DNA of 29,240 nt from a virus. Shown here piece after piece: positions 18,598 to 29,240 of the stretch; position 1 is the stretch's first letter; each line of letters opens with the position of its first letter. The position numbers were made by a program, and so were the translations under genes. The notes below the pieces were generated by a model, which worked only from the letters and a program-made list of their open reading frames with translations, ran no database searches and was not told the DNA's origin. Location: positions 1 through 29,240 of the IMG/VR virus record IMGVR_UViG_3300021368_000864; one strand, given 5' to 3'.

Positions 18598-19046
18598 AAA
18601 TTATTTGTCACCGTGGTAATCTAAACGGCCCCAATCCCTTGACAGAAAACAATTTACGACAAATTGATGTTTGTATCGAGAAGGGTTATGATGTAGAGAT
18701 TGATCTGTGGGTAGGTGATGGTCTGTGGTTGGGACACGATGGGCCCGAATATCTCATAACCAAGGAGTGGTTGACATTTCGCCAACGCAACCTGTGGGTT
18801 CATTGTAAAAACATCGAAGCGGTGATGTTTCTTCGTGCATACGCACCACACATGCACTGGTTTTGGCACCAAGAGGATGACTACACATTGACATCGCACG
18901 GGTGGGTCTGGGCGTATCCGAACAAACCCGTAACTCCCGATGCGACTCGTTCGGTCTGTGTTATGCCTGAGATATATAACTCTGACACGAGTAATTTCCA
19001 AGCGGTTTGTACTGACTATGCTGAAACTTATACTATTCGATCTTGA
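18594..19046 (+). CDS. GDPD-like phosphodiesterase (short)
   Basis: A 150-residue protein from GTG 18594, overlapping the deacetylase stop by GTGA. The catalytic pattern of glycerophosphodiester phosphodiesterases is visible: His6-Arg7-Gly (CHRGNL), then Glu35 and Asp37 (VEIDLW), then His48-Asp49 (LGHDGP). At 150 residues it is far shorter than classical enzymes (about 250) and seems to hold only part of the TIM barrel. Related short proteins occur in glycan clusters. It could hydrolyse a phosphodiester in a teichoic-acid-like or glycerol-phosphate modification, or it could be a non-catalytic relative. It overlaps the next gene by 29 bases. Confidence 0.7.
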   Translation: MKIICHRGNLNGPNPLTENNLRQIDVCIEKGYDVEIDLWVGDGLWLGHDGPEYLITKEWLTFRQRNLWVHCKNIEAVMFLRAYAPHMHWFWHQEDDYTLTSHGWVWAYPNKPVTPDATRSVCVMPEIYNSDTSNFQAVCTDYAETYTIRS

Positions 19047-20373
19047 CGGCGTATTGATCGATACAAAATGGATACATTATGCCTGCTTGAATGAAGCATT
19101 GGGTAAGTACGCCCTGAGTGAAGAAGAACACATCAACATATACGATGGGCGTAAGACAACCGAAAAACTCAATATGATTAGTGAGGCGAAGGGTCTGCCG
19201 CATTCCCAACACCAAGAAATCTACGAAGTGAAACAAAGATTGACGATGGAGGAAATCGTAAAGATTAAACCCCGTCAGTACATCGTCGATCTGTTTCGAA
19301 ACCTTGTTGAAGATGGGTATAAAGTAGGTGTGTGTTCTAACAGTATTCGTCGAACCGTATTGACTGCACTTGCAAAGAGTGAGTTAATGGAGTATCTGTC
19401 AATCATTATCACCAACGATGATGTAAAGAACCCAAAACCACATCCAGAAATGTACTGGAAAGCAATGTCGATGATGAGTTGTTTGCCCGAAGAAACTGCA
19501 ATCGTCGAAGATTCGCCGCAGGGTCTTGCTGCTGCTCACAGATCAAAGGCAAATGTGATTCGAGTGTCGTCACCTGAAGAGGTTACGATAGACAATATAT
19601 ACTCTAAATTGATTGGAGAACAATTCGTGACAAAATGGAAAGATGAAAAGATGAATGTTCTGATTCCCATGGCGGGCGCAGGATCTCGTTTTGCACAGGC
19701 AGGATACACATTCCCCAAACCACTGATACCGGTAAATGGTAAACCGATGATTCAGGTGGTGGTTGAGAATCTAGGAGTCGAAGCAAACTTCATCTATGTG
19801 GTACAGAAAGAACATCGTGAGAAATTCAACCTCGATACGATGTTAGAACTCATTACGGCAGGGCAATGCACGGTGATCGAAGTTGATGGTATAACTGAGG
19901 GTGCTGCATGTACTGCACTCATGGCAAAAGATCTTATCAACAACGATGACCCATTATTCTTTGCGAACAGTGATCAGTTTGTGGAATGGAGACCAATCGA
20001 CTTTCTCTACAAGATGCAAGAACAACAGTGCGACGGTGGTATCGTAACATTCAAGGATACCCACCCCAAATGGAGTTTTGCAAAGGTCGACTATGAAACA
20101 AATAAGGTTACAGAAGTCGCGGAGAAGAACCCAATCAGTGACAACGCTACTGCGGGTTATTACTGGTGGAAGCGTGGTTCAGACTTTGTTAAATATGCCG
20201 AAGAAATGATCGAAAAAGACATTCGAGTCAATAACGAGTTTTATGTTGCTCCAGTATACAATCAAGCCATTGAAGACGATAAAACTATTCGTATCTTTGA
20301 AGCTGATAAAATGTGGGGGTTAGGTACTCCCGAAGATCTCGAATATTATTTAAAAAATTATACGGAGGCTTAA
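19018..20373 (+). CDS. Two-domain HAD phosphatase - sugar nucleotidyltransferase fusion
   Basis: A 451-residue protein from ATG 19018; an in-frame ATG at 18940 would lie deep in the previous gene. Residues 1 to about 200 are a HAD phosphatase: LFDLDGVL (Asp8, Asp10), VCSNS, the KPHPEMY lysine motif and VEDSPQG. From about residue 212 a nucleotidyltransferase follows: VLIPMAGAGSRF, then FPKPLIPVNGKPMI, a metal motif FFANSDQ and, near the end, WGLGTPEDLEYYL. The order suggests that a sugar phosphate is trimmed and then activated as NDP- or CMP-sugar by one polypeptide. Which sugar is unknown. The next gene starts right after the stop. Confidence 0.88.
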   Translation: MLKLILFDLDGVLIDTKWIHYACLNEALGKYALSEEEHINIYDGRKTTEKLNMISEAKGLPHSQHQEIYEVKQRLTMEEIVKIKPRQYIVDLFRNLVEDGYKVGVCSNSIRRTVLTALAKSELMEYLSIIITNDDVKNPKPHPEMYWKAMSMMSCLPEETAIVEDSPQGLAAAHRSKANVIRVSSPEEVTIDNIYSKLIGEQFVTKWKDEKMNVLIPMAGAGSRFAQAGYTFPKPLIPVNGKPMIQVVVENLGVEANFIYVVQKEHREKFNLDTMLELITAGQCTVIEVDGITEGAACTALMAKDLINNDDPLFFANSDQFVEWRPIDFLYKMQEQQCDGGIVTFKDTHPKWSFAKVDYETNKVTEVAEKNPISDNATAGYYWWKRGSDFVKYAEEMIEKDIRVNNEFYVAPVYNQAIEDDKTIRIFEADKMWGLGTPEDLEYYLKNYTEA

Positions 20374-20910
20374 ATGCGAAAATTATATGACAACTATGTC
20401 ACAACTGTTTCGACTTGGGGCATGGCGGCATCTTATGATGTTTTGGAACTAATTGTGGATCACTGTCAAACCAATAATCCCTCTCGTATTTTAGACTTGG
20501 GGAGTGGAATTAGTTCTTCGGTTCTTTCAAGTTTAAAGTTAGAGGGATCAATCACATCGTCAGACGATAGTGAGGCTTGGTTGCAAAAAACAGTAGAATT
20601 TATGCGAAAACACAATCTAAATGTTCATGAAATGGTTTCTTGGAACGATTTTAAAAATGAACAACGAGAAGGTTATGATTTCATATTCTATGATCTTGGT
20701 AGAATACCAGTTAGACTTGAAAACATGAAACATGTTTTTGGTTTATTAAATAAGGGTGGTCATATTCTTGTTGATGACATGCATAAACCCAAAGTTAAAG
20801 AATTGTGTGATTCTTTAGTTAAAGAGTTTGAATATGAAGTTGTTAGGGAAAGTGATAAAGAAGTAAGATCACTTAGTGGAAGATATGGAGTGTTAATTAA
20901 GAAACCATGA
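20374..20910 (+). CDS. SAM-dependent methyltransferase (O-methyltransferase-like)
   Basis: A 178-residue protein whose ATG directly follows the previous TAA; ACGGAGG lies a few bases before it. RILDLGSGISSSVL is motif I, ITSSDDSEAWLQKT the acidic second strand and GYDFIFYDLG the post-II strand; KGGHILVDDMH is the typical late strand of O-methyltransferase-like proteins. It is markedly AT-rich compared with flanking genes, so it may have arrived separately. The substrate is unknown, probably a glycan. Confidence 0.78.
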   Translation: MRKLYDNYVTTVSTWGMAASYDVLELIVDHCQTNNPSRILDLGSGISSSVLSSLKLEGSITSSDDSEAWLQKTVEFMRKHNLNVHEMVSWNDFKNEQREGYDFIFYDLGRIPVRLENMKHVFGLLNKGGHILVDDMHKPKVKELCDSLVKEFEYEVVRESDKEVRSLSGRYGVLIKKP

Positions 20911-21608
20911 AAACCTTTATTCTGTACAACACCGAAGATGATCGCAGTGTAAAAAATGCTGAGAAGTGTCTTGGTTCATTCACCGGCAAGTCTGGTTATG
21001 AACCAGAGTTGTATGCTGGGTGTTGGAAAACCACTATACCCGAATGGAGAGAAAGATATGGATACTGGGAAGGCGTCAACACACCACAGTTTCCCCGAAA
21101 AGAAGTTGAAGTAAGAAAACTCGCGACATTCTACTCACACTATTCATTATGGCAAAAATGTGTGGAGTTGAATGAACCAGTTGTTGTAGTAGAACACGAC
21201 ACTGTGTGTATCGGTGATCTCAACATTGATGAAGATTGGGATGATATGTTATGGATTCAGTTGACTGTTCAGTCAGTGTTTGATCCATTCAATCTCGCAA
21301 ATGGTCAACGAAAGTCACACTGGGCAAGTGATCCCAAAAACCTCGCACAGTATAATTCAATCGGAGAGGGTGTGCACAATACTTTCTGGAGACACAAAGA
21401 TGGTAGCCGTCATCTCGCAGGAAATACCGGACAGATCATGACTCCCAAAACTGCACAATACTTTATTAATTTTGTACACGAAAGTGGGTGGGGTCAAAAT
21501 GACCGGTTCAAAACACCAAATGAAATGAGAGTGATGTATGTCAACCCGTCACCGATCAAATGGGTTGCTGCATCTGAACTCAATCTATCGACGGGGAGAA
21601 TGGGGTGA
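20907..21608 (+). CDS. GT25-like glycosyltransferase
   Basis: A 233-residue protein, ATGA-coupled to the methyltransferase and GTGA-coupled to the next gene. EVRKLATFYSHYSLWQKC followed by PVVVVEHDTVCI is the GT25 signature with EHD in place of EDD. GNTGQIMTPKTAQYF fits the later conserved strand and helix. It is a paralogue of the proteins at 13509, 21605 and 23954 and would add a hexose to a host or virion glycan. Confidence 0.75.
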   Translation: MKTFILYNTEDDRSVKNAEKCLGSFTGKSGYEPELYAGCWKTTIPEWRERYGYWEGVNTPQFPRKEVEVRKLATFYSHYSLWQKCVELNEPVVVVEHDTVCIGDLNIDEDWDDMLWIQLTVQSVFDPFNLANGQRKSHWASDPKNLAQYNSIGEGVHNTFWRHKDGSRHLAGNTGQIMTPKTAQYFINFVHESGWGQNDRFKTPNEMRVMYVNPSPIKWVAASELNLSTGRMG

Positions 21609-22303
21609 AGTCATACATTATCACACTGACCGAAGATGAAGTCTCTACTGACGCGACTACCAAAGCAATTATGTCGAGTCATGCTGTTGAGAACGATTTC
21701 AATATCGATATATTCGACGCGACTATACCAGAACATGTTGATCAGCAAATGGAGTTGTACGATCTAAAGTGGAATTGGCCATGGGAACAACTCGAAAATG
21801 ATATGCATTCTGGTTTGATGAAACTACCTTATCTCACTGCAAACCGAAAGAAACGCATCGCTTGTTTCCTATCCCATTATCGGTTATGGAAGTCTTGCGT
21901 GATTGAAAATCAACCCCTATTGGTGTTCGAACATGATGTGGTTTTCACCAGTAAAGTTCCGGTAGACATTCTCGAAAAATCGAAGTACAGTGTTATTGGT
22001 CTTAATGATCCTCGCAGGGCAACTCGTAAGTCAGACCTGTATCACGAGGCAGTACAGTCCGATGCAGGCCCCGTCTGTCCATGCCCCAAGATTGATGTCG
22101 ATAATGTAGCACAAGGTCTTGCAGGTAATTCTGCATACTATATCAAACCTCAAGGTGCCCAGAAACTTCTTGACTTGGTTGATGAATATGGTGCATGGCC
22201 TAATGATGCAATCATGTGTCGTCAGATGATGCCAGGCCAACTAGGTCAATTGCGAAAGTATTGCACTACTGTGCAACGAATGATTTCGACAACAAAAACA
22301 TGA
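21605..22303 (+). CDS. GT25-like glycosyltransferase
   Basis: A 232-residue protein from GTG 21605. It is the clearest of the group: KSYIITLTEDE at the start, KKRIACFLSHYRLWKSC and PLLVFEHDVVF, then LAGNSAYYIKPQGAQKLLDL. A cysteine-containing loop (VCPCPKID) lies between the metal motif and the last block. It sits next to another GT25 protein, suggesting successive additions to one chain. It overlaps the next gene as ATGA. Confidence 0.8.
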   Translation: MKSYIITLTEDEVSTDATTKAIMSSHAVENDFNIDIFDATIPEHVDQQMELYDLKWNWPWEQLENDMHSGLMKLPYLTANRKKRIACFLSHYRLWKSCVIENQPLLVFEHDVVFTSKVPVDILEKSKYSVIGLNDPRRATRKSDLYHEAVQSDAGPVCPCPKIDVDNVAQGLAGNSAYYIKPQGAQKLLDLVDEYGAWPNDAIMCRQMMPGQLGQLRKYCTTVQRMISTTKT

Positions 22304-23040
22304 GGGTCGCCGTTTGTGTTGGAGGTCAGTTAAGAGTAGAACCCAAAGTACTCAAACTGACAGTGGATCTTTTGAAAGATGCATTTCCGACAGCGGACAT
22401 GTACTACACGGTATGGCGTGAAGATTATGTCGAACGAAAGGATGAGGTCGATCAGTTTGGTGGACATGTTGAGATCATAGACGAATATGATATTGACTAC
22501 CACCCATACGAAGATAATCGAGATGCAGTAAACACACACAATTATCGAAAGAAACTAAAGTTTCCAAATCCTACGCGGCACCTTCATCAAACAAAACAGA
22601 TTTTAAATCACAACACCATGATGCGAAAGTATCTTCACAAATATGATGTGGTTGTTCGTTCTCGTTATGATGTGATGTTGAGTCCGTATCAAGACTATCG
22701 AAAAGTGTTGGAAGAGTGCTTGAATCATCCCGCGACTATAACAATCCTAGATGGTGAAAGAGGAAACGGATATCACATACACAGTAAAGTTGTGTATGAT
22801 AACGACAGTAATCCATCAAGAATGGTTGGGGACAGTGGTACTTTCGTGCATCGAGTGGTGGATTGGGATTGTGATCTTGTAGACAGATTACACAAAGAAA
22901 AGAAACTACTTGCCGCAGAGTTCGGATGGTATCAGGCAATTTGTCAGTATACCGAATACAAGAACTATATAATCTACAGCGGCGCATCGAAACTCACTCG
23001 ATGTCACACTCCGGAAGAAAGAGAAAACTTTGTTATATGA
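22300..23040 (+). CDS. Putative glycosyltransferase, first of a tandem paralogous pair
   Basis: A 246-residue protein from ATG 22300 (ATGA overlap); an in-frame ATG at 22216 lies inside the previous gene. It begins MRVAVCVGGQLR, followed by LLKDAFPTADMYYTVW, then HQTKQILNHN, YDVVVRSRYDVMLSPY, GTFVHRVVDWDCDLVDRLH and EFGWYQAI. The RxRYD block resembles the acidic donor site of glycosyltransferases in LPS clusters (WavE-like), but I cannot name the family with certainty. The neighbour at 23037 shares all these blocks in the same order. A role in surface glycan assembly is inferred from that resemblance and the context. Confidence 0.6.
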   Translation: MRVAVCVGGQLRVEPKVLKLTVDLLKDAFPTADMYYTVWREDYVERKDEVDQFGGHVEIIDEYDIDYHPYEDNRDAVNTHNYRKKLKFPNPTRHLHQTKQILNHNTMMRKYLHKYDVVVRSRYDVMLSPYQDYRKVLEECLNHPATITILDGERGNGYHIHSKVVYDNDSNPSRMVGDSGTFVHRVVDWDCDLVDRLHKEKKLLAAEFGWYQAICQYTEYKNYIIYSGASKLTRCHTPEERENFVI

Positions 23041-23957
23041 GAGTAGGTGTATTCATTTCTGGTCAACTGAGGAAGAATACCGATGCAAATTTAATGATTT
23101 GCAACGATCTACTGCGTGATGCATTTCCGGATGCAAAGTTCTTTTATCATGTGTACGAAGAAGAACACGACAATAAAACTTATCTTTTTGAAAACATTTA
23201 TGATGGAAAGGTGATGACATGTGAAGAGTCCGAAGTTCATTACTCTCCGTATCTCGACAATCCAGATCTTTATGACAACGAAATGTATCGTCTAAAAGTC
23301 AAGGGAGCGCGTGAGACCGGTAAAAAGATCGAACGAAGAAATCGCAATGCAGTGAAACAGATACTACACCACAACAATTTAATCAAACGGTGGGGTGGCG
23401 AAGTCGATGTGATAGTACGCACGAGATACGATGTCGCGGTCAGTCCACTGTATGATTTCTCTCAGTGGGTCGAACAAGTCTACAATGATCATTCTGTTGT
23501 CGCAATTGCAAATAGATTTGGTCAACCCTCTAGTAGTATGGGTAAAGATTATGATACAATGCCTGTTAACAATGATATTAGATGGCCGACAATAGAAGCA
23601 ACTCCAGATCGACCATACTTTATCATGAAGAACATGAAATCAAAAGAGTTAGAATATCAGTCAATGTTGTCTATACCGTTCATGCACGACAATGGCATCA
23701 TTATACATAGGACTGAGGACTGGGATTGTAAACTAGTCGATCATCTCTATGAGAGAAAGAAACTGCTACCAGGCGAATGGGGTTGGTGGCAAGTCTTGAT
23801 AAGAGATTTTGCAGCAAATAAGAAGTGGTCGTACTTAGACGGTGGCGCACAAATCGCATCTTATTTGCCAAAGAAAAAGGAATGGACAGATTCGTTTAAT
23901 ATTGTAATAAAGAATGATCCGGATCTAATTGAATTGAGGAACTTATTGAATCTATGA
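23037..23957 (+). CDS. Putative glycosyltransferase, second of a tandem paralogous pair
   Basis: A 306-residue protein from ATG 23037 (ATGA overlap). It repeats the blocks of the preceding protein: MRVGVFISGQLRKN, LLRDAFPDAKFFYHVY, VKQILHHN, VDVIVRTRYDVAVSPLYDF, TEDWDCKLVDHLYERKKLLPG and EWGWWQVLI. It is about 60 residues longer because of an insert after the RTRYD block. The conservation of RTRYD and the WDC-LVD region between the two copies marks them as functionally important. Probably derived by local duplication. Confidence 0.6.
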   Translation: MRVGVFISGQLRKNTDANLMICNDLLRDAFPDAKFFYHVYEEEHDNKTYLFENIYDGKVMTCEESEVHYSPYLDNPDLYDNEMYRLKVKGARETGKKIERRNRNAVKQILHHNNLIKRWGGEVDVIVRTRYDVAVSPLYDFSQWVEQVYNDHSVVAIANRFGQPSSSMGKDYDTMPVNNDIRWPTIEATPDRPYFIMKNMKSKELEYQSMLSIPFMHDNGIIIHRTEDWDCKLVDHLYERKKLLPGEWGWWQVLIRDFAANKKWSYLDGGAQIASYLPKKKEWTDSFNIVIKNDPDLIELRNLLNL

Positions 23958-24607
23958 AATCGTATGTCATAACAATCATGGACATGCCGGAATCTGTCAA
24001 GGCTGCAGAACGATGTATCGCATCGATGCCTGAGTTTGATGTTCAGATGTTCCCTGCTATCACTCCAAAAGATAATCCGGTAAAACTCGCTGAAAGTAAA
24101 GGTATTGATCTTCACTGGTTTATGCGCGCTGATGGTGGTAAATTCTCTCGCATGAATCGATGCGTTGCTGCATTTATGTCACACCACACCTTGTGGGAAA
24201 TGTGTATTCGCGACAACGAAGAATATCAGATCTTTGAACACGATGCTGTACGAGTCGGGAATCTGCCAATGCATATCGAACACAGAGGAACACTGACCAT
24301 TGGTGCACCTAGTTACGGTGCGTTTCTTACTCCGCATCATTTTGGTGTTCAGAGACTTATGCACAAACAGTATTTCGGTGGCGCACATGCATATCGTATG
24401 AAACCCAAAGCGGCGGTTGCTATTGTCGACAAAGCAAAAGAGTTTGCAGCAGCTACAGATGTCTTCTTATCGTTCGATTTTTTCCCGTGGTTACAAGAAT
24501 ATTATCCATGGCCGGTTATCGCAAAAGACAATTTTTCTACCATTCAAAAAGAGGGTGGGTGTGTTGCAAAACACGGTTACAATCCGGAGAAGTATAAAAT
24601 ATTATGA
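23954..24607 (+). CDS. GT25-like glycosyltransferase
   Basis: A 217-residue protein, the fourth GT25-like copy. KSYVITIMDMPESV starts the nucleotide-binding fold, RCVAAFMSHHTLWEMC and YQIFEHDAVRV form the signature with EHD, and GGAHAYRMKPKAAVAI is the late block. It overlaps both neighbours by ATGA. Divergence from the copies at 20907 and 21605 is substantial, so a different linkage or donor is likely. Confidence 0.75.
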   Translation: MKSYVITIMDMPESVKAAERCIASMPEFDVQMFPAITPKDNPVKLAESKGIDLHWFMRADGGKFSRMNRCVAAFMSHHTLWEMCIRDNEEYQIFEHDAVRVGNLPMHIEHRGTLTIGAPSYGAFLTPHHFGVQRLMHKQYFGGAHAYRMKPKAAVAIVDKAKEFAAATDVFLSFDFFPWLQEYYPWPVIAKDNFSTIQKEGGCVAKHGYNPEKYKIL

Positions 24608-25281
24608 GTGTTACAGTATGTTGTGTCTTATGGGGTGATAAGTTCTCTGAAGACTATGTTCATAATCTCAAGGCGGCAGTGGAACGAAACACTACTGTAC
24701 CCCACGAGTTTGTGTGTCTAAGTGATCGTCAAATTTCTGGTGTCAAAACAAAACTTCTGAAAGGGGGAATGACTGGTTGGTGGAATAAACTCCAGTTGTT
24801 TGATGGGGAAATCAAGGGAAGAATTGTGTACTTTGATCTAGACACAATCATCACATCCAGTATCGATTGGTTGATGAAGTATACCGGTACATTTGCTGGC
24901 ATCGAAGATCTGGGTGTTGCTAATGCACATCAACAACATCTAAAGGGTGTCATGCAGTCGGGTGTTATGGCATGGCGAAGTGAGGCGATGGATTGGGTAA
25001 ATCTAGAGTTCACATTAACTCAAGCCGTTGTGACTAATCAATTCAGGGGTGATGGTGAGTATCTCAATCACATTGTCAAACAACGAGACTTGTTGCAGCG
25101 ACTTTACCCAAACTCTGTAAAGTCATATAAGTACGATGTGTATCCCGACAAGTTAGAACAGACATCGGTGATATGTTTTCACGGTCGACCATCAATTATA
25201 CAGGCGATGAACGAATCTGTGACAACTCCTATGAGAACATATGAACCACAAGGTTGGATAAAGGATTATTGGCATGGGTAG
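24604..25281 (+). CDS. GT-A glycosyltransferase (GT8-like)
   Basis: A 225-residue protein. GRIVYFDLDTIITSS holds the DxD motif at Asp78-Asp80; the preceding WWNKLQLF and following GVMAWRSE blocks fit small GT8-like or capsule-type glycosyltransferases found in marine bacteria and phages. VICFHGRPS near the end supplies the terminal histidine motif. It overlaps the next gene by 8 bases. Confidence 0.72.
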   Translation: MSVTVCCVLWGDKFSEDYVHNLKAAVERNTTVPHEFVCLSDRQISGVKTKLLKGGMTGWWNKLQLFDGEIKGRIVYFDLDTIITSSIDWLMKYTGTFAGIEDLGVANAHQQHLKGVMQSGVMAWRSEAMDWVNLEFTLTQAVVTNQFRGDGEYLNHIVKQRDLLQRLYPNSVKSYKYDVYPDKLEQTSVICFHGRPSIIQAMNESVTTPMRTYEPQGWIKDYWHG

Positions 25282-26026
25282 AGTAGTTCATGTAATCGGA
25301 AACGGAGACAAGGCAGATCTATATCAACGCGAAAAACGCGAGGGCATGAAACTGATCTGTAATATGCCTCCATTTGAGATTGACCCTAGAGAAGTGTATG
25401 CCACTTGTATGGTAGACTTCAAAATGATGATGGCATTGACCAAAGGAGAGATCGCACTAGATCAATACGAATGGGTGCTCGGCACTCGCCCTCGTATCTG
25501 GATGTATGAACGCTCTGCTTTCTACCTGAAGTATGCAAACCGTGTTAAAGAATTTTATACTCATGTCCCCAAATATGCAGGGAATGCAACCAACTTCAAT
25601 TGTGGTCACATGGCAGTCCACTATGCCGCAAACCAGAAGAAAGCAGACGAAGTTCATCTATATGGTTTCGACACGATCTTTGATTTTAATATGAGGTCGG
25701 TCACTGATTTAATCCTAAGTTCCGATCGATCAACGGTTAATAACTATCGGTTGTTGAATAACTGGCGTCCTATATGGCGAGACATCTTCCGCGAGTTTGA
25801 TAAGACTAAATTTGTATTGCACCATAATCACGACAATTTAAAAATACCAAAACTTGACAATGTCGAAGTGAAAGTGTATAGTGATAAACTCTTGACTAGA
25901 AATCAGCAACGTGAAGATCCGTCTGATATTAGTGATGGTCGTGGCATGGAAGTACCAATTGATACTGCACCATTAAACCGTAAACAACGGCGTGCACAAG
26001 AAGCGATGCAACGCAAGGCAAAATAA
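25274..26026 (+). CDS. Rossmann-like protein resembling GT42 sialyltransferases/DUF115
   Basis: A 250-residue protein. VVHVIGNGDKADL is a glycine-rich opening loop like the GNGPSL of GT42 sialyltransferases and DUF115 (MptE-like) proteins; LICNMPPFEID corresponds to the CNQF strand, and NCGHMAVHYAANQK then DEVHLYGFDTI match the late helix and the G-D strand of that fold. A CMP-sugar substrate is possible but not shown. The C terminus is a basic tail (LNRKQRRAQEAMQRKAK), a motif often seen at the end of phage proteins. It is the last gene of the glycan block; its stop shares a base with the nuclease start. Confidence 0.5.
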   Translation: MGRVVHVIGNGDKADLYQREKREGMKLICNMPPFEIDPREVYATCMVDFKMMMALTKGEIALDQYEWVLGTRPRIWMYERSAFYLKYANRVKEFYTHVPKYAGNATNFNCGHMAVHYAANQKKADEVHLYGFDTIFDFNMRSVTDLILSSDRSTVNNYRLLNNWRPIWRDIFREFDKTKFVLHHNHDNLKIPKLDNVEVKVYSDKLLTRNQQREDPSDISDGRGMEVPIDTAPLNRKQRRAQEAMQRKAK

Positions 26027-26703
26027 TGTTTGAACATATGGAGATTGATCTAGGTTACAAAGACCTAGAGGCAATCACAACTGAGAAAGGTCGTCGTTAT
26101 GTAATGCAGGACGGGAGTCATTACCCATCGATCACCACAGTTCTATCGATACTGAGTGAAGATGGTATCGCGGCATGGCGTAAGAGAGTCGGGAATGAAG
26201 AGGCAGACAAAATTTCATACAGAGCATCTCAACGAGGAACTGCTGTACACGAAATTATTGAGAGATATATCGACAACAAGGAAGACTATCGTGACGGTTT
26301 CATGCCTAATGTTGTTTCTGATTTCTTCTCCATCAAACCAATATTGGATTCAAGGATTGGTAAGGTATACGCACAAGAAGTCCCTTTATACTCTGATTAT
26401 CTAGGTGTCGCTGGTCGCGTAGACTGCATTGCAGAGTTCGACGGTAAACTATCAGTCATTGATTTTAAGACAAGTCGACGATTTAAAAGTGCAGATAAAA
26501 TAAATAATTATTTCCAACAGGAGGCGTTTTACGCAATCGCATGGGAAGAACGCACAGGCATTCCCATCACACAACTGGTCACACTCATTGTAGTGGATGA
26601 CGGATCGACGCAAATATTTGTTGAACACCGTGATGACTGGGCTGGAGAGTTGCAAGAAACGATCGAGAAGTATAATGAACGAAGACATCCAGCAGATTCA
26701 TGA
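26026..26703 (+). CDS. PD-(D/E)XK nuclease (RecB/MGME1-like exonuclease)
   Basis: A 225-residue protein from ATG 26026. The active site can be read in order: RGTAVHEII (His75), Glu118 in AQEVPLYS, Asp133 in GRVDCIAEF, then Asp146-Phe-Lys148 in VIDFKTSRR, followed by Gln165-xxx-Tyr169 of the QxxxY motif. This is the pattern of RecB-type exonucleases involved in processing DNA ends during replication or recombination; proteins like this occur in T4-like marine phages. It overlaps the heme-oxygenase-like gene by 29 bases, so this core replication-type gene and the pigment genes are expressed together. Confidence 0.87.
   Translation: MFEHMEIDLGYKDLEAITTEKGRRYVMQDGSHYPSITTVLSILSEDGIAAWRKRVGNEEADKISYRASQRGTAVHEIIERYIDNKEDYRDGFMPNVVSDFFSIKPILDSRIGKVYAQEVPLYSDYLGVAGRVDCIAEFDGKLSVIDFKTSRRFKSADKINNYFQQEAFYAIAWEERTGIPITQLVTLIVVDDGSTQIFVEHRDDWAGELQETIEKYNERRHPADS
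26499..26513 (+). promoter_or_regulatory. Late-promoter-like motif with palindrome inside the nuclease gene
   Basis: AATAAATA (26499-26506) matches T4 late consensus TATAAATA at 7 of 8 bases and overlaps a perfect 12-base palindrome, AAATAATTATTT (26502-26513). It lies about 160 bases before the heme-oxygenase-like start and could drive late expression of the two pigment genes. Being AT-rich and inside a coding region, it may be chance. Confidence 0.25.
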
Positions 26704-27184
26704 CGAAGTAGAGAACCTTCCGTTCTCACAGAAACTTGCCGCAGGTGAATTGACAGATCCACAGATCATCGCATACATGCAGAACCAGTGGTTTATCTTT
26801 CAGTCAATGGAAGGATCAATAAACAAATTACCCCACGAGTCGTTACGTCGGTGTCGAAAGATACGTGAGTGCGTTTATGCCATGGAAGAGGAAATCGACG
26901 GCAAGTGGATGACTCAGGCAGTTAAAGACTACATAAACTATATTATCGGTGCAGAAGACTATCGCGAGAAGTGGATGTCTCATGTCTATCTAAACTACAT
27001 GGCATTCATGATGGGTGGTTCAATCCTTGTAGAGAAGAATCCAGAGATGACATGGATGTGGCACTTTGATGATCGACAAGAATGCATCAAGGCAATCCGT
27101 GCCGAAGAGATTGACTTTGATCAGGTGCACGAAGGATTCAAATATCATCGCCGGATGTTGGAGGAATTAAATCATGTGGGATGA
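26675..27184 (+). CDS. Heme oxygenase-family protein
   Basis: A 169-residue all-helical protein from ATG 26675; an in-frame ATG at 26597 lies well inside the nuclease gene. IHDEVENLPFSQKLAAGEL at residues 8-26 matches the proximal helix of heme oxygenases (H-x-x-A-E-N then F-L-G-L), placing the heme-ligand histidine at His9. YMQNQWFIFQSME fits the next helix (Y---L---Y--LE). HVYLNYMAFMMGG at 103-115 lines up with the distal helix HAYxRYLGDLSGG with identical spacing of His, Tyr and Gly-Gly, but the usual Arg and Asp are Asn107 and Phe111. Heme oxygenases open heme to biliverdin using reduced ferredoxin and oxygen. The bilin reductase gene overlaps its end by 11 bases, the strongest support for this reading. 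Confidence 0.78.
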   Translation: MNEDIQQIHDEVENLPFSQKLAAGELTDPQIIAYMQNQWFIFQSMEGSINKLPHESLRRCRKIRECVYAMEEEIDGKWMTQAVKDYINYIIGAEDYREKWMSHVYLNYMAFMMGGSILVEKNPEMTWMWHFDDRQECIKAIRAEEIDFDQVHEGFKYHRRMLEELNHVG

Positions 27185-27812
27185 CTTCATAGAGTTGCAA
27201 CGGGAACTCACAGGTATATTTACGTTTTACTGTGAAGGTGGTAGACCCGATCACTATGAAGAATATAATCACTACAACTGGTTCTGGAAGAACAAGAAGC
27301 TAGAACTAGGTCATATCTCTGTCGTCGACAAACGTGAGTCACACGGCATCTGGATGATGCATGTCAACGCCTACGCAAAAGTTACTTACCCGATGCCAAT
27401 CTACGGGTTCGATGTCGTCTGTGGTAAGAACAAGGTCACGGGTTGTTTCCATGATCTGTCACCTACCGGTTACAACGATATGCAGATGACCCGCAAGGAA
27501 GTCACCCGCGAACGAGAACTCCCCGACTGGGCGAAAGAGATCTTCTCTGGCAATATGCTCGCCGCAGGAAACATTACCGAAAAAGACGAAGCACTCGAAT
27601 ACGCAACACTGGGTGTCGACAACCTTGAAGCATGGTTCATGACACTCGAACGCAACAAACCCTCTGTCCCACCGGTGCAATACATTGGCGCACGATCAAA
27701 GTATTGTCACAACCAGCTTCAGAACCCCCACAGTTTCAATGTCATGAAGAGTCTGGGGTTTCCCGAAGACTATCTGACTGAATTCAAGACCACGAAACAG
27801 TTCCCCTTTTAA
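27174..27812 (+). CDS. pcyX: Ferredoxin-dependent bilin reductase (PcyA/PcyX-like)
   Basis: A 212-residue protein. YPMPIYGFDVV followed by GCFHDLSPTGYND corresponds to the PcyA segments GLPLFGCDIV and ADLSPT, and SKYCHNQLQNPHS near the C terminus to HYCQQQQKNDKT. His63 (MMHVNAY) and Asp80 (YGFDVV) are 17 residues apart, exactly as His88 and Asp105 of Synechocystis PcyA. The PcyA Glu76 position appears to be Ser49 and the C-terminal KND is QNP, so chemistry may differ. The family reduces biliverdin to phycobilins with ferredoxin electrons. Non-cyanophage viral PcyX, reported together with a heme oxygenase from marine metagenomes, makes phycoerythrobilin; this pair fits that description. The symbol is my best guess. 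Confidence 0.8.
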   Translation: MWDDFIELQRELTGIFTFYCEGGRPDHYEEYNHYNWFWKNKKLELGHISVVDKRESHGIWMMHVNAYAKVTYPMPIYGFDVVCGKNKVTGCFHDLSPTGYNDMQMTRKEVTRERELPDWAKEIFSGNMLAAGNITEKDEALEYATLGVDNLEAWFMTLERNKPSVPPVQYIGARSKYCHNQLQNPHSFNVMKSLGFPEDYLTEFKTTKQFPF

Positions 27813-27826
27813 TCGGTTTTTCCGAT
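27812..27826 (+). terminator. Weak hairpin after the bilin reductase gene
   Basis: ATCGG (27812-27816) and CCGAT (27822-27826) form a 5-base-pair stem around a TTTTT loop starting at the last base of the stop codon, followed by CATTTTC. The stem is short and the downstream T run is broken, so termination would be partial at best. Confidence 0.35.
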
Positions 27827-27867
27827 CATTTTCAAAAAGTTTTACAAATTTTCCCATGAAAAAAGTG

Positions 27868-27896
27868 TTGACGGGAGCGTCAATACGTGCGATAAT
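27868..27896 (+). promoter_or_regulatory. Sigma70-like promoter with overlapping inverted repeat
   Basis: TTGACG (27868-27873), a 17-base spacer and GATAAT (27891-27896) precede ATG 27928, with start expected near 27903. The -35 is the left half of a perfect inverted repeat, TTGACG-GGAG-CGTCAA (27868-27883), which could be an operator. The bases upstream share AAAAAGTGTTGAC with the promoter at 28581. Confidence 0.72.
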
Positions 27897-27927
27897 TACC
27901 TTGTAATTTGAGATGAGGAATTGAGAC

Positions 27928-28203
27928 ATGGCACGAATTATCTACCAAACTGAGTGTGAACTTCAAGAGATGCAGGCTGAAGGTATTGACTTCAACCAAG
28001 CCCTTCGAATCATCAAGGGGTTCATGGGTACTGAAGATACTCTTGACGCTCTTCAAGGTTTTGAGAAGCGTTACGCGAAAGCGGAAGTTGACGCTCTTGA
28101 GACTGACGACTACGGTTTCGACCACGAGTGGCGATACGAAGTCTACGCTTACAATCTTCTGGTTGAAGGTTTCGGTAAACTGTTTGCGCCTAAGGAGGCA
28201 TAA
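27928..28203 (+). CDS. Small acidic phage protein of unknown function
   Basis: A 91-residue protein, the first gene after its own promoter, with GAGG about 9 bases before ATG 27928. It looks helical and acidic (ECELQEMQAEGIDF, ALETDDYGFDHEW) with a short hydrophobic C-terminal helix (YAYNLLVEGFGKLF). I do not recognise a family. Position behind a host-type promoter suggests early expression, which in phages often means host take-over functions, but nothing in the sequence shows that. Confidence 0.6.
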   Translation: MARIIYQTECELQEMQAEGIDFNQALRIIKGFMGTEDTLDALQGFEKRYAKAEVDALETDDYGFDHEWRYEVYAYNLLVEGFGKLFAPKEA

Positions 28204-28205
28204 TT

Positions 28206-28484
28206 ATGTTGAAGTTTGAGAATGTTGCGAAGGTCGGTGAGTTCATCAAGGCGATGGATTTCCGCCCCCGCGAAGGTGTCGAAGATTCGTTTGTGATTGG
28301 TAAAGTTCTTCGCCATGCACCAGCTCGTTGTGGTTACTACATCGAGTGTCGTTTCGACACCGAAGGTCAACGAGTCGGAGAAGAGGTTTTCGTCCCGTTC
28401 GGATTGGCGCCTTTCGCTGAGTGGGACGATCGTGTTCAGTATGTGAATGACGGTGCGATGCGTATGATTACTACTGGTCGGTAG
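28206..28484 (+). CDS. Small phage protein of unknown function
   Basis: A 92-residue protein with a strong ribosome binding site (AAGGAGG at 28193-28199, inside the previous gene's end) 6 bases before ATG 28206. It has alternating hydrophobic and polar residues suggesting a beta-rich fold (SFVIGKVLRHA, GYYIECRF, EEVFVPFGLAPF). No motif or family is recognised. It shares the promoter at 27868 with the preceding gene and is followed by terminator-like structure. Confidence 0.6.
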   Translation: MLKFENVAKVGEFIKAMDFRPREGVEDSFVIGKVLRHAPARCGYYIECRFDTEGQRVGEEVFVPFGLAPFAEWDDRVQYVNDGAMRMITTGR

Positions 28485-28485
28485 T

Positions 28486-28552
28486 GTTTCGGGGTCTGAA
28501 ACGAAGATTGCTAATGATTGCTATGGATGATGACCCCTGTTTTATTTGTTTC
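28486..28552 (+). terminator. Terminator-like region with competing stems
   Basis: GGGGTC (28491-28496) can pair with GACCCC (28532-28537), followed by TGTTTTATTTGTTT. GTTTC (28486-28490) can instead pair with GAAAC (28498-28502), which could also pair with a second GTTTC just after 28547. A direct repeat GATTGCTA (28506-28513 and 28516-28523) sits in the loop. It ends the two-gene unit; the long loop makes efficiency uncertain. The rest of the gap up to 28580 shows nothing else I can name. Confidence 0.45.
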
Positions 28553-28580
28553 GTGAATAGTGAGTATTCACCAAAAAGTG

Positions 28581-28609
28581 TTGACTTTTCTTTGAATCTT
28601 TGAGATAAT
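28581..28609 (+). promoter_or_regulatory. Sigma70-like promoter before the leader RNA
   Basis: TTGACT (28581-28586) and GATAAT (28604-28609) are 17 bases apart, with AAAAAGTG directly upstream as in the promoter at 27868. Transcription should begin near 28616, giving a leader of about 86 bases before ATG 28702. Confidence 0.75.
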
Positions 28610-28615
28610 ACTTGT

Positions 28616-28682
28616 GTTGATTGGGGAGATCTGGCGTCTTCTGACTAGGAACTTCGGGTTCACTGTTTCTCCCCCTTTTTTT
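28616..28682 (+). ncRNA. Short terminated leader RNA (attenuator or small RNA)
   Basis: Between the promoter at 28581 and ATG 28702 the transcript can fold into an outer stem, GGGGAGA (28623-28629) with TCTCCCC (28668-28674), that encloses a smaller hairpin GAAC-TTCGG-GTTC and is followed after one C by seven T (28676-28682). This has the features of an intrinsic terminator about 60 bases after the start site and 20 bases before the gene. It could be an attenuator controlling the downstream gene, or a small RNA of about 67 bases. No known riboswitch class is recognised. Confidence 0.55.
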
Positions 28683-28701
28683 CTCTACTGGAGTTTATAT
28701 T

Positions 28702-29232
28702 ATGTCTGACCAAACTATTCGCATTGTTTTCCAAACTCAGTATCTTGAGAACTATGGTGCCCATTGTTGGGACGGTGAGGGTGAGTGCCCTCAACGGTGG
28801 AAGCCCAAGGGTGGCTCCACCTATGTGGTGCCTTGCACCCCCGCTCAGCTCGCGGATGCCGAGTGGTACAATGCCGTCGAGAATGGCATTGCCAAGCGTA
28901 ATGACTACGAGCAGGAGTACATTATCAATGTACAGGTGGTCGATGCTATCGACTATGTCGAGTCAGACCATGTTGAGTTCTGGGAAGCAATCACCAATGT
29001 TCATGTCTCCATCGGTGGTGACTTGTTGATGGAGCAACAGGTTCTCAACTTTGATAACGAGGTGGTTGGTGTTCGCCGCTGGGTTCAGAACGCCGAGGAA
29101 GGTATGATCGGTTCTACGACTCGTGAAGAGTTTGAACCTGTGACTGTCGATTGGCGTCAACAGAAAGAAATGGAAATGCACGGTATCGATGATACCTTCG
29201 CAGAACTTGAAGCTATGATGGAGGTTGCGTGA
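28702..29232 (+). CDS. Acidic phage protein of unknown function
   Basis: A 176-residue soluble protein with GGAG (28690-28693) 8 bases before ATG 28702. The N-terminal part, RIVFQTQYLENYGAHCWDG followed by GECPQRWKPKGGSTYVV, has the look of a conserved domain seen in large marine phages, annotated only as hypothetical. The C-terminal half is acidic and helical (DDTFAELEAMMEVA). No catalytic residues can be assigned. The gene has its own promoter and a terminator-bearing leader, so its expression is probably regulated. The base composition, richer in G and C than the glycan genes, matches the phage core. Confidence 0.65.
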   Translation: MSDQTIRIVFQTQYLENYGAHCWDGEGECPQRWKPKGGSTYVVPCTPAQLADAEWYNAVENGIAKRNDYEQEYIINVQVVDAIDYVESDHVEFWEAITNVHVSIGGDLLMEQQVLNFDNEVVGVRRWVQNAEEGMIGSTTREEFEPVTVDWRQQKEMEMHGIDDTFAELEAMMEVA

Positions 29233-29240
29233 TGTTAGAC
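29232..29240 (+). CDS. Start of a further gene (3' truncated)
   Basis: ATG at 29232 overlaps the preceding TGA (TGATG) and opens a frame reading Met-Leu-Asp before the window ends. The overlap is of the type used by most genes here. Nothing about the product can be said. Confidence 0.35.

Follow-up and report, generated by a model that had tools for sequence, protein, structure and literature searches.

A predicted and apparently undescribed three-way-junction leader RNA behind an early promoter of T4-like aquatic phages

Introduction

According to the cited sections of two reports, the structured RNAs manA (RF01745) and wcaG (RF01761) of T4-like cyanophages lie in what may be the 5′ UTRs of a variety of genes, in T4-like phages of marine or estuarine origin, and their function is unproven (PMC2864571, PMC9964418). 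Part of the description of Melnitz, a marine T4-like phage, reports a glutamine riboswitch (PMC9004378), which sets a precedent for riboswitch use in this phage group. In the relevant passages on phage HK022, the putRNA is approximately 70 nt long, putL lies directly behind an early promoter independently of the gene that follows, and termination is suppressed via the zinc-binding domain of the RNA polymerase β′ subunit (PMC9378689). The hammerhead ribozyme, as outlined in the excerpt cited, is a junction with a conserved core that is known in circular permutations (PMC10085705).

Here, we describe a leader element that shares features with each of these. Among known RNAs, it comes closest to the structured leaders of T4-like cyanophages, for example manA and wcaG, yet two of its members match neither Rfam model at E values up to 10. 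It resembles HK022 putRNA in its length of approximately 70 nt, its position behind an early promoter and its gene independence, but put RNAs are described in those passages as two stem-loops present in two copies per genome, whereas the element is a three-way junction at one locus per matching record. Like the hammerhead, it is a conserved-core junction in circular permutations; however, the CUGAnGA core given in that excerpt (PMC10085705) was not seen in the element, and there was no Rfam match.

Results

Organization of the leader

The window is the whole 29,240-nucleotide stretch that was analysed (positions 1 to 29,240 of IMG/VR record IMGVR_UViG_3300021368_000864), and the leader region occupies 28581–28701 on the plus strand, ahead of a 176-aa gene. 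The early sigma70-type promoter (28581–28609) has a −35 box, TTGACT, at 28581–28586, a 17-nt spacing and an extended −10 element, read from the window sequence as TG at 28601–28602 and GATAAT at 28604–28609; it matches the consensus at 10 of 12 positions, with the TG in addition. From the position of the −10, the transcript is predicted to start at approximately 28616 with an unpaired 5′ end, GUUGAUU (28616–28622). The element therefore stands directly behind the promoter, with helix P1 beginning about 7 nt after the predicted start. The 5′ strand of P1, GGGGAGA (28623–28629), pairs with UCUCCCC (28668–28674) in the window fold, in RNAalifold and by covariation, which affects two P1 pairs. The joint between P1 and P2, UCUGG(C/U) (28630–28635), contains a UCUGG that is invariant in 13/13 rows of the single-form alignment A5. 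P2 is the hairpin GUC UUCU GAC (28636–28645), in which 28636–28638 pair with 28643–28645 and two of three pairs are compensated. P3, UAGGAACUUCGGGUUCACUG (28646–28665), has a UUCGG loop, a bulged A at 28662 and an invariant base, UAGG/CACUG; three of its eight pairs are compensated and 100% of cells are paired. A pyrimidine-rich spacer follows (28675–28689), made up of C28675 and then seven T residues (28676–28682) that look terminator-like in the window. The Shine-Dalgarno (SD) sequence GGAG (28690–28693) starts 15 nt past P1, and the first gene of the early transcript runs from its ATG at 28702 to 29232. The 176-aa product belongs to no known family, with no match in PHROGs, Pfam, PADLOC or NCBIfam.

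The original prediction had named the promoter, the GGGGAGA/UCUCCCC stem, the UUCGG inner hairpin, the seven T residues, the SD and the gene, and all of them are present at these positions. The minimum free energy fold of the window likewise holds the stem (28623–28629/28668–28674) and the inner hairpin. The prediction was right that both helices exist, but it overlooked P2; because 28636–28638 pair with 28643–28645, the fold is a three-way junction rather than a plain stem with an inner hairpin.

Taken alone, the window sequence shows nothing beyond chance, so the significance of the element is comparative. Single-sequence folding z-scores for the window leader were −0.39 and −0.84, and promoter-like sites in 20000–29240 occurred at the shuffle rate (23 versus 21.4 ± 4.6 in shuffles). 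A terminator scan of the window did not list the leader site because the loop limit of the scan is 8, and a tRNA search of the window found none. Elsewhere in the window, a 91-aa gene is preceded by another early-type promoter and a short leader of the ordinary kind (27868–27927), a heme oxygenase gene (PF01126) adjoins one for a ferredoxin-dependent bilin reductase (PF05996; 26597–27812), and a 477-aa protein combines HAD hydrolase and nucleotidyltransferase domains (18940–20373).

Covariation supports a three-way junction

In the single form, a 7-bp P1 closes a three-way junction with arms P2 and P3 around the conserved core UCUGG / UAGG...CACUG. Single forms were aligned as A4 (n = 12) and A5 (n = 13), the latter with L267 added; L003 was excluded from both for its insertion, and its P1 reads GGGAGAC/GUCUCCC by eye. 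P1 of L267 is GAGAGG/CCUCUC, and the 5′ one of these strands looks like the purine tract that these phages carry in their ordinary early leaders. The sequence of P2 varies among single forms (GUC/GAC, GCGA/UCGC), and P3 combines its invariant base, UAGG...CACUG with one bulged A, with a variable upper part (GAAC/GUUC, GGGC/GCCC, GGAC/GUCC). Across the 13 single forms, 97.4% of 234 cells at 18 pairs were paired, with changes on both sides at 7 pairs (24 cells); 1 of 500 shuffles reached this pair count and none of 500 reached the cell count. Slid controls of the same alignment were 37–59% paired, and these are the safer comparison because relatedness is lost in shuffles. RNAalifold found the single junction unprompted, together with three extra pairs that extend P1 into the joint. 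P1, P2 and P3 each show compensatory changes, in the tandem as well as in the single form, and the stem of the original prediction thus clearly recurs in relatives.

In the varying pair columns of alignments A3 and A4, there were 16 G-U/U-G cells versus 5 A-C/C-A cells, an excess that fits an RNA made from the leader's own strand. A leader peptide was also considered: the gap between CUGG and UAGG is, by eye, 9, 10, 11, 13 and 14 nt in L160, L004, the window, L082 and L054, respectively, and this reading was rejected because indels not divisible by three break the frame. Judged by these comparisons, the conserved junction is almost certainly a real RNA. It shares with riboswitches a conserved aptamer-like core and covarying helices in a 5′ UTR.

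A nested form contains a permuted second junction

In 13 of the 26 distinct leaders, the loop of P2 holds another copy of the junction in circularly permuted form. The inner unit has a P2 strand complementary to the P2 strand of the first unit, and in place of P1 it has a short hairpin; we read this tandem RNA as two three-way junctions that share P2, with the inner one circularly permuted relative to the outer. The tandem alignment (A3) omits L156 and L237 as near-duplicates. In the remaining 11 sequences, 98.1% of 360 cells at 33 pairs were paired, and both sides had changed at 12 pairs (22 cells), which 0/500 shuffles reached. The shared P2 has four compensated pairs. A local hairpin, CUGGUC/GACUAG, is preferred by RNAalifold, but it has zero compensated pairs and was rejected; single-sequence folds of several tandem members also prefer it, without the shared P2.

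The doubled motif is present upstream of relatives of the 176-aa protein in L005–L008 and L010–L012. Both forms were found ahead of two gene families, and the switch between single and tandem form therefore probably occurred more than once.

Distribution among phages

Viral contigs encode 23 relatives of the 176-aa protein; 10 of these have the element upstream, including a partial copy in L002, where the contig begins inside P3. The element is absent upstream of 11, none of which is matched by covariance model R2, and the contigs of the remaining two (L009 and L014) start inside the gene. Pattern scans and covariance model R1 located the element before other genes. R1 matched 39 of 47, 13 of 30, 2 of 6 and, among the matches listed, 3 of 64 sources, ratios that are not frequencies because the sources were chosen by pattern. 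Four sources are common to the 47- and 30-source sets, 11 of the sequences had themselves trained R1, and the 13/30 count omits an 18-bit match in L175 that was taken as chance. Members outside the R1 training set scored 63.8 (L243), 64.0 (L255) and 55.4 bits (L267). Many of the pattern matches, among those listed, are chance; the window-stem pattern 30–55 nt before six T residues returned 13 stretches (L025–L037), which are pattern matches only.

When whole records were searched, the element was present in 24/26, 12/12 and 4/5 records of three sets, at a single locus in each matching record; the records searched include 160, 106, 84, 70 and 64 kb, and most are fragments. The two misses in the first set were G009, a pattern match without model support, and phage C48C1. 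The second set contained an extra weak match in G026 (E = 0.15), and in the third, G041 had none and G040 had an extra 11.5-bit match.

A blastn search of two leaders against 50,697 named-phage records gave no match, and model R2 matched none of C48C1, Melnitz-3, P-HM1 and S-PM2. C48C1, placed in Kyanoviridae, is the closest named phage found; its relative of the 176-aa protein is 49% identical over the first 132 residues, in a stretch without the element. The gene psbA was not found in 18 related records including C48C1, which are mostly fragments, and a heterotrophic host is therefore possible. An origin of the element in host DNA was rejected: 10 pattern stretches were found in genome contigs, where rough arithmetic gives a chance expectation of about 20, and the model matched none of them at E up to 1.

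At curated thresholds, Rfam 15 gave 0 matches for the whole window and for seven loci with members; at E up to 10, two members each hit three unrelated low-scoring models. A literature search, subscription papers and preprints apart, found no description of the element. Comparative sequence evidence thus points to a real and apparently undescribed leader RNA of T4-like aquatic phages.

Promoter and RNA are kept while the genes change

The promoter upstream of the element is kept in relatives, and promoter and RNA stay together while the genes on both sides vary. Eleven unrelated first-gene families lie behind 25 leaders; L067 was unassigned in this count, and separate inspection found an ORF of family c0 behind it. 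Such a range of first genes is at odds with the proposal that control is specific to the 176-residue gene. In L113, the first gene behind the tandem leader is HNH endonuclease-like.

In type III toxin-antitoxin loci, a toxin gene of the ToxN/Abi type follows a tandem array of RNA repeats. The resemblance lies in the order of promoter, possibly repeated structured RNA, terminator-like step and gene. The gene behind the element, however, differs (11 families), and no repeat is present in the single form; the 7 of 11 first-gene families that were scanned, all but those of L160, L127, L255 and L249, included no toxin or Abi family.

The SD starts 13–18 nt past P1 in 21 of the 26 leaders. The exceptions are L160 and L167 (8 nt), L243 (24 nt), and L127 and L249, in which an extra hairpin is inserted. 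This hairpin (L127:4024–4110 and L249:6193–6265) is G+C-rich, is followed by T6 and lies between element and SD; it has no credible Rfam relation, and an exact 21-nt piece of the L249 copy is present in one further contig.

Other early promoters of these phages are followed by short leaders of the type GTAAATTGAGTTGAGAGAG, without the element. A repeated early-promoter leader was rejected as a description, given one locus per matching record and ordinary leaders elsewhere. Of 35 loci scanned, three have a tRNA-Pro (TGG) gene whose end lies a short distance upstream of the leader promoter (L003:992–1068, L006:4715–4791 and L163:10500–10576).

The terminator-like end is not conserved

With a G+C-rich stem directly followed by a U tract, the window has the sequence expected of an intrinsic terminator. 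Among the 26 distinct leaders, a run of at least four T residues begins within 3 nt of P1 in 8, and 21 have at least five T residues within 8 nt; what most leaders share is thus a pyrimidine-rich spacer and not a strong U tract. The ordinary early leaders have maximal T counts of 1–6 before the SD, mostly 3–4. L159 (AAGCCCTTTACATT) and L041 (TTCTCACTCCTTTG) have no four-T run near the stem, and L002, whose protein is 99% identical to that of the window, reads CCCCCCCTTTTC and has lost the T7. Attenuation is thus plausible from the window sequence, yet it is not the conserved trait, and an intrinsic terminator cannot be taken as a general property of the leader, as originally proposed. What stands of that proposal is a conserved structured 5′ element, riboswitch-like in that sense.

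An SD switch operated by the 3′ strand of P1 was considered and rejected. For freeing of this strand, mean SD accessibility was 0.24 vs 0.17, and it was lower in 18/24; the SD was not hidden consistently, and the pairing partners differ. No conserved expression platform, terminator or SD sequestration, was found across the leaders.

Discussion

We give about even weight to a cis-acting role, in which the element would set the expression of whichever early operon it heads. The element would form the 5′ end of a single early transcript of T4-like phages, and by comparison it folds into the P1/P2/P3 junction around the UCUGG / UAGG...CACUG core. The core could be the functional site, since both permutations keep it while the helices covary, and it may bind a factor; candidates are a small molecule, RNA polymerase, the ribosome or another protein of phage or host. 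The effect would probably be exerted on the element's own transcript. Attenuation by P1 and the T run is one way in which this could happen in the window and in a minority of relatives. We rank this role as the most likely on two grounds: the promoter–element pair is preserved in front of differing genes, and the distance from P1 to the SD varies little. Counted against it are the unconserved T run and an SD accessibility that is not consistently switched, and cis control of 11 different gene families is unusual for a ligand-specific switch.

A trans-acting small RNA is somewhat unlikely. In that case, the leader would be freed by termination or processing and would act on a target in the host or the phage; it might, for instance, be a protein sponge, with two binding sites in the tandem form. 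The gene behind it would be incidental. Constancy of promoter and RNA against variable downstream (11 families) and upstream genes, the single locus per matching record and the good T runs of some members all fit such an RNA. However, an SD and an ORF follow closely in nearly all leaders, and a conserved terminator or processing site was looked for in the leaders and not found.

We consider it improbable that the element is a put-like antiterminator, with the nascent junction binding the transcribing RNA polymerase and letting it pass downstream terminators. The position directly behind an early promoter and the gene independence are as in the passages on HK022 putL (PMC9378689), and L082 has a strong terminator (10-pair stem, T8) approximately 770 nt downstream. 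The two stem-loops and two copies per genome given there for put RNAs (PMC9378689) nevertheless differ from a three-way junction that each matching record has at one locus, behind a single one of many early promoters.

Very little weight falls on a plain intrinsic attenuator, in which most transcription would stop at P1 and the T run, ahead of the gene, with the inner arms serving only to stabilize the stem. The T7 behind P1 in the window and a spacer richer in T (21/26 leaders) than that of ordinary early leaders agree with it, but a T run close to P1 in only 8/26, its loss in the near-identical L002, and an invariant core and permuted double junction that it leaves unexplained argue against it. 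Chance, without any functional RNA, would suit the ordinary single-sequence folding energy and is refuted by the compensatory changes in all three helices of both forms, which leave it a negligible probability.

A cis-acting leader regulator remains our preferred reading. More tentatively, and at somewhat less than even probability, the element may represent a new class of phage regulatory RNA, with a portable three-way-junction core that works in two circular permutations, can be nested into a double unit by sharing one helix, is linked to an early promoter rather than to a gene and would act at genome level on RNA polymerase or on a host factor in trans. The known leader RNAs of T4-like aquatic phages, manA and wcaG, are still without proven function. 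The anatomy of this element is unusually clear, with covarying helices, an invariant core, single and nested forms, one locus per matching record and swappable downstream genes, and its structure and function are therefore directly testable. It also gives a model for finding further members in environmental DNA and RNA.
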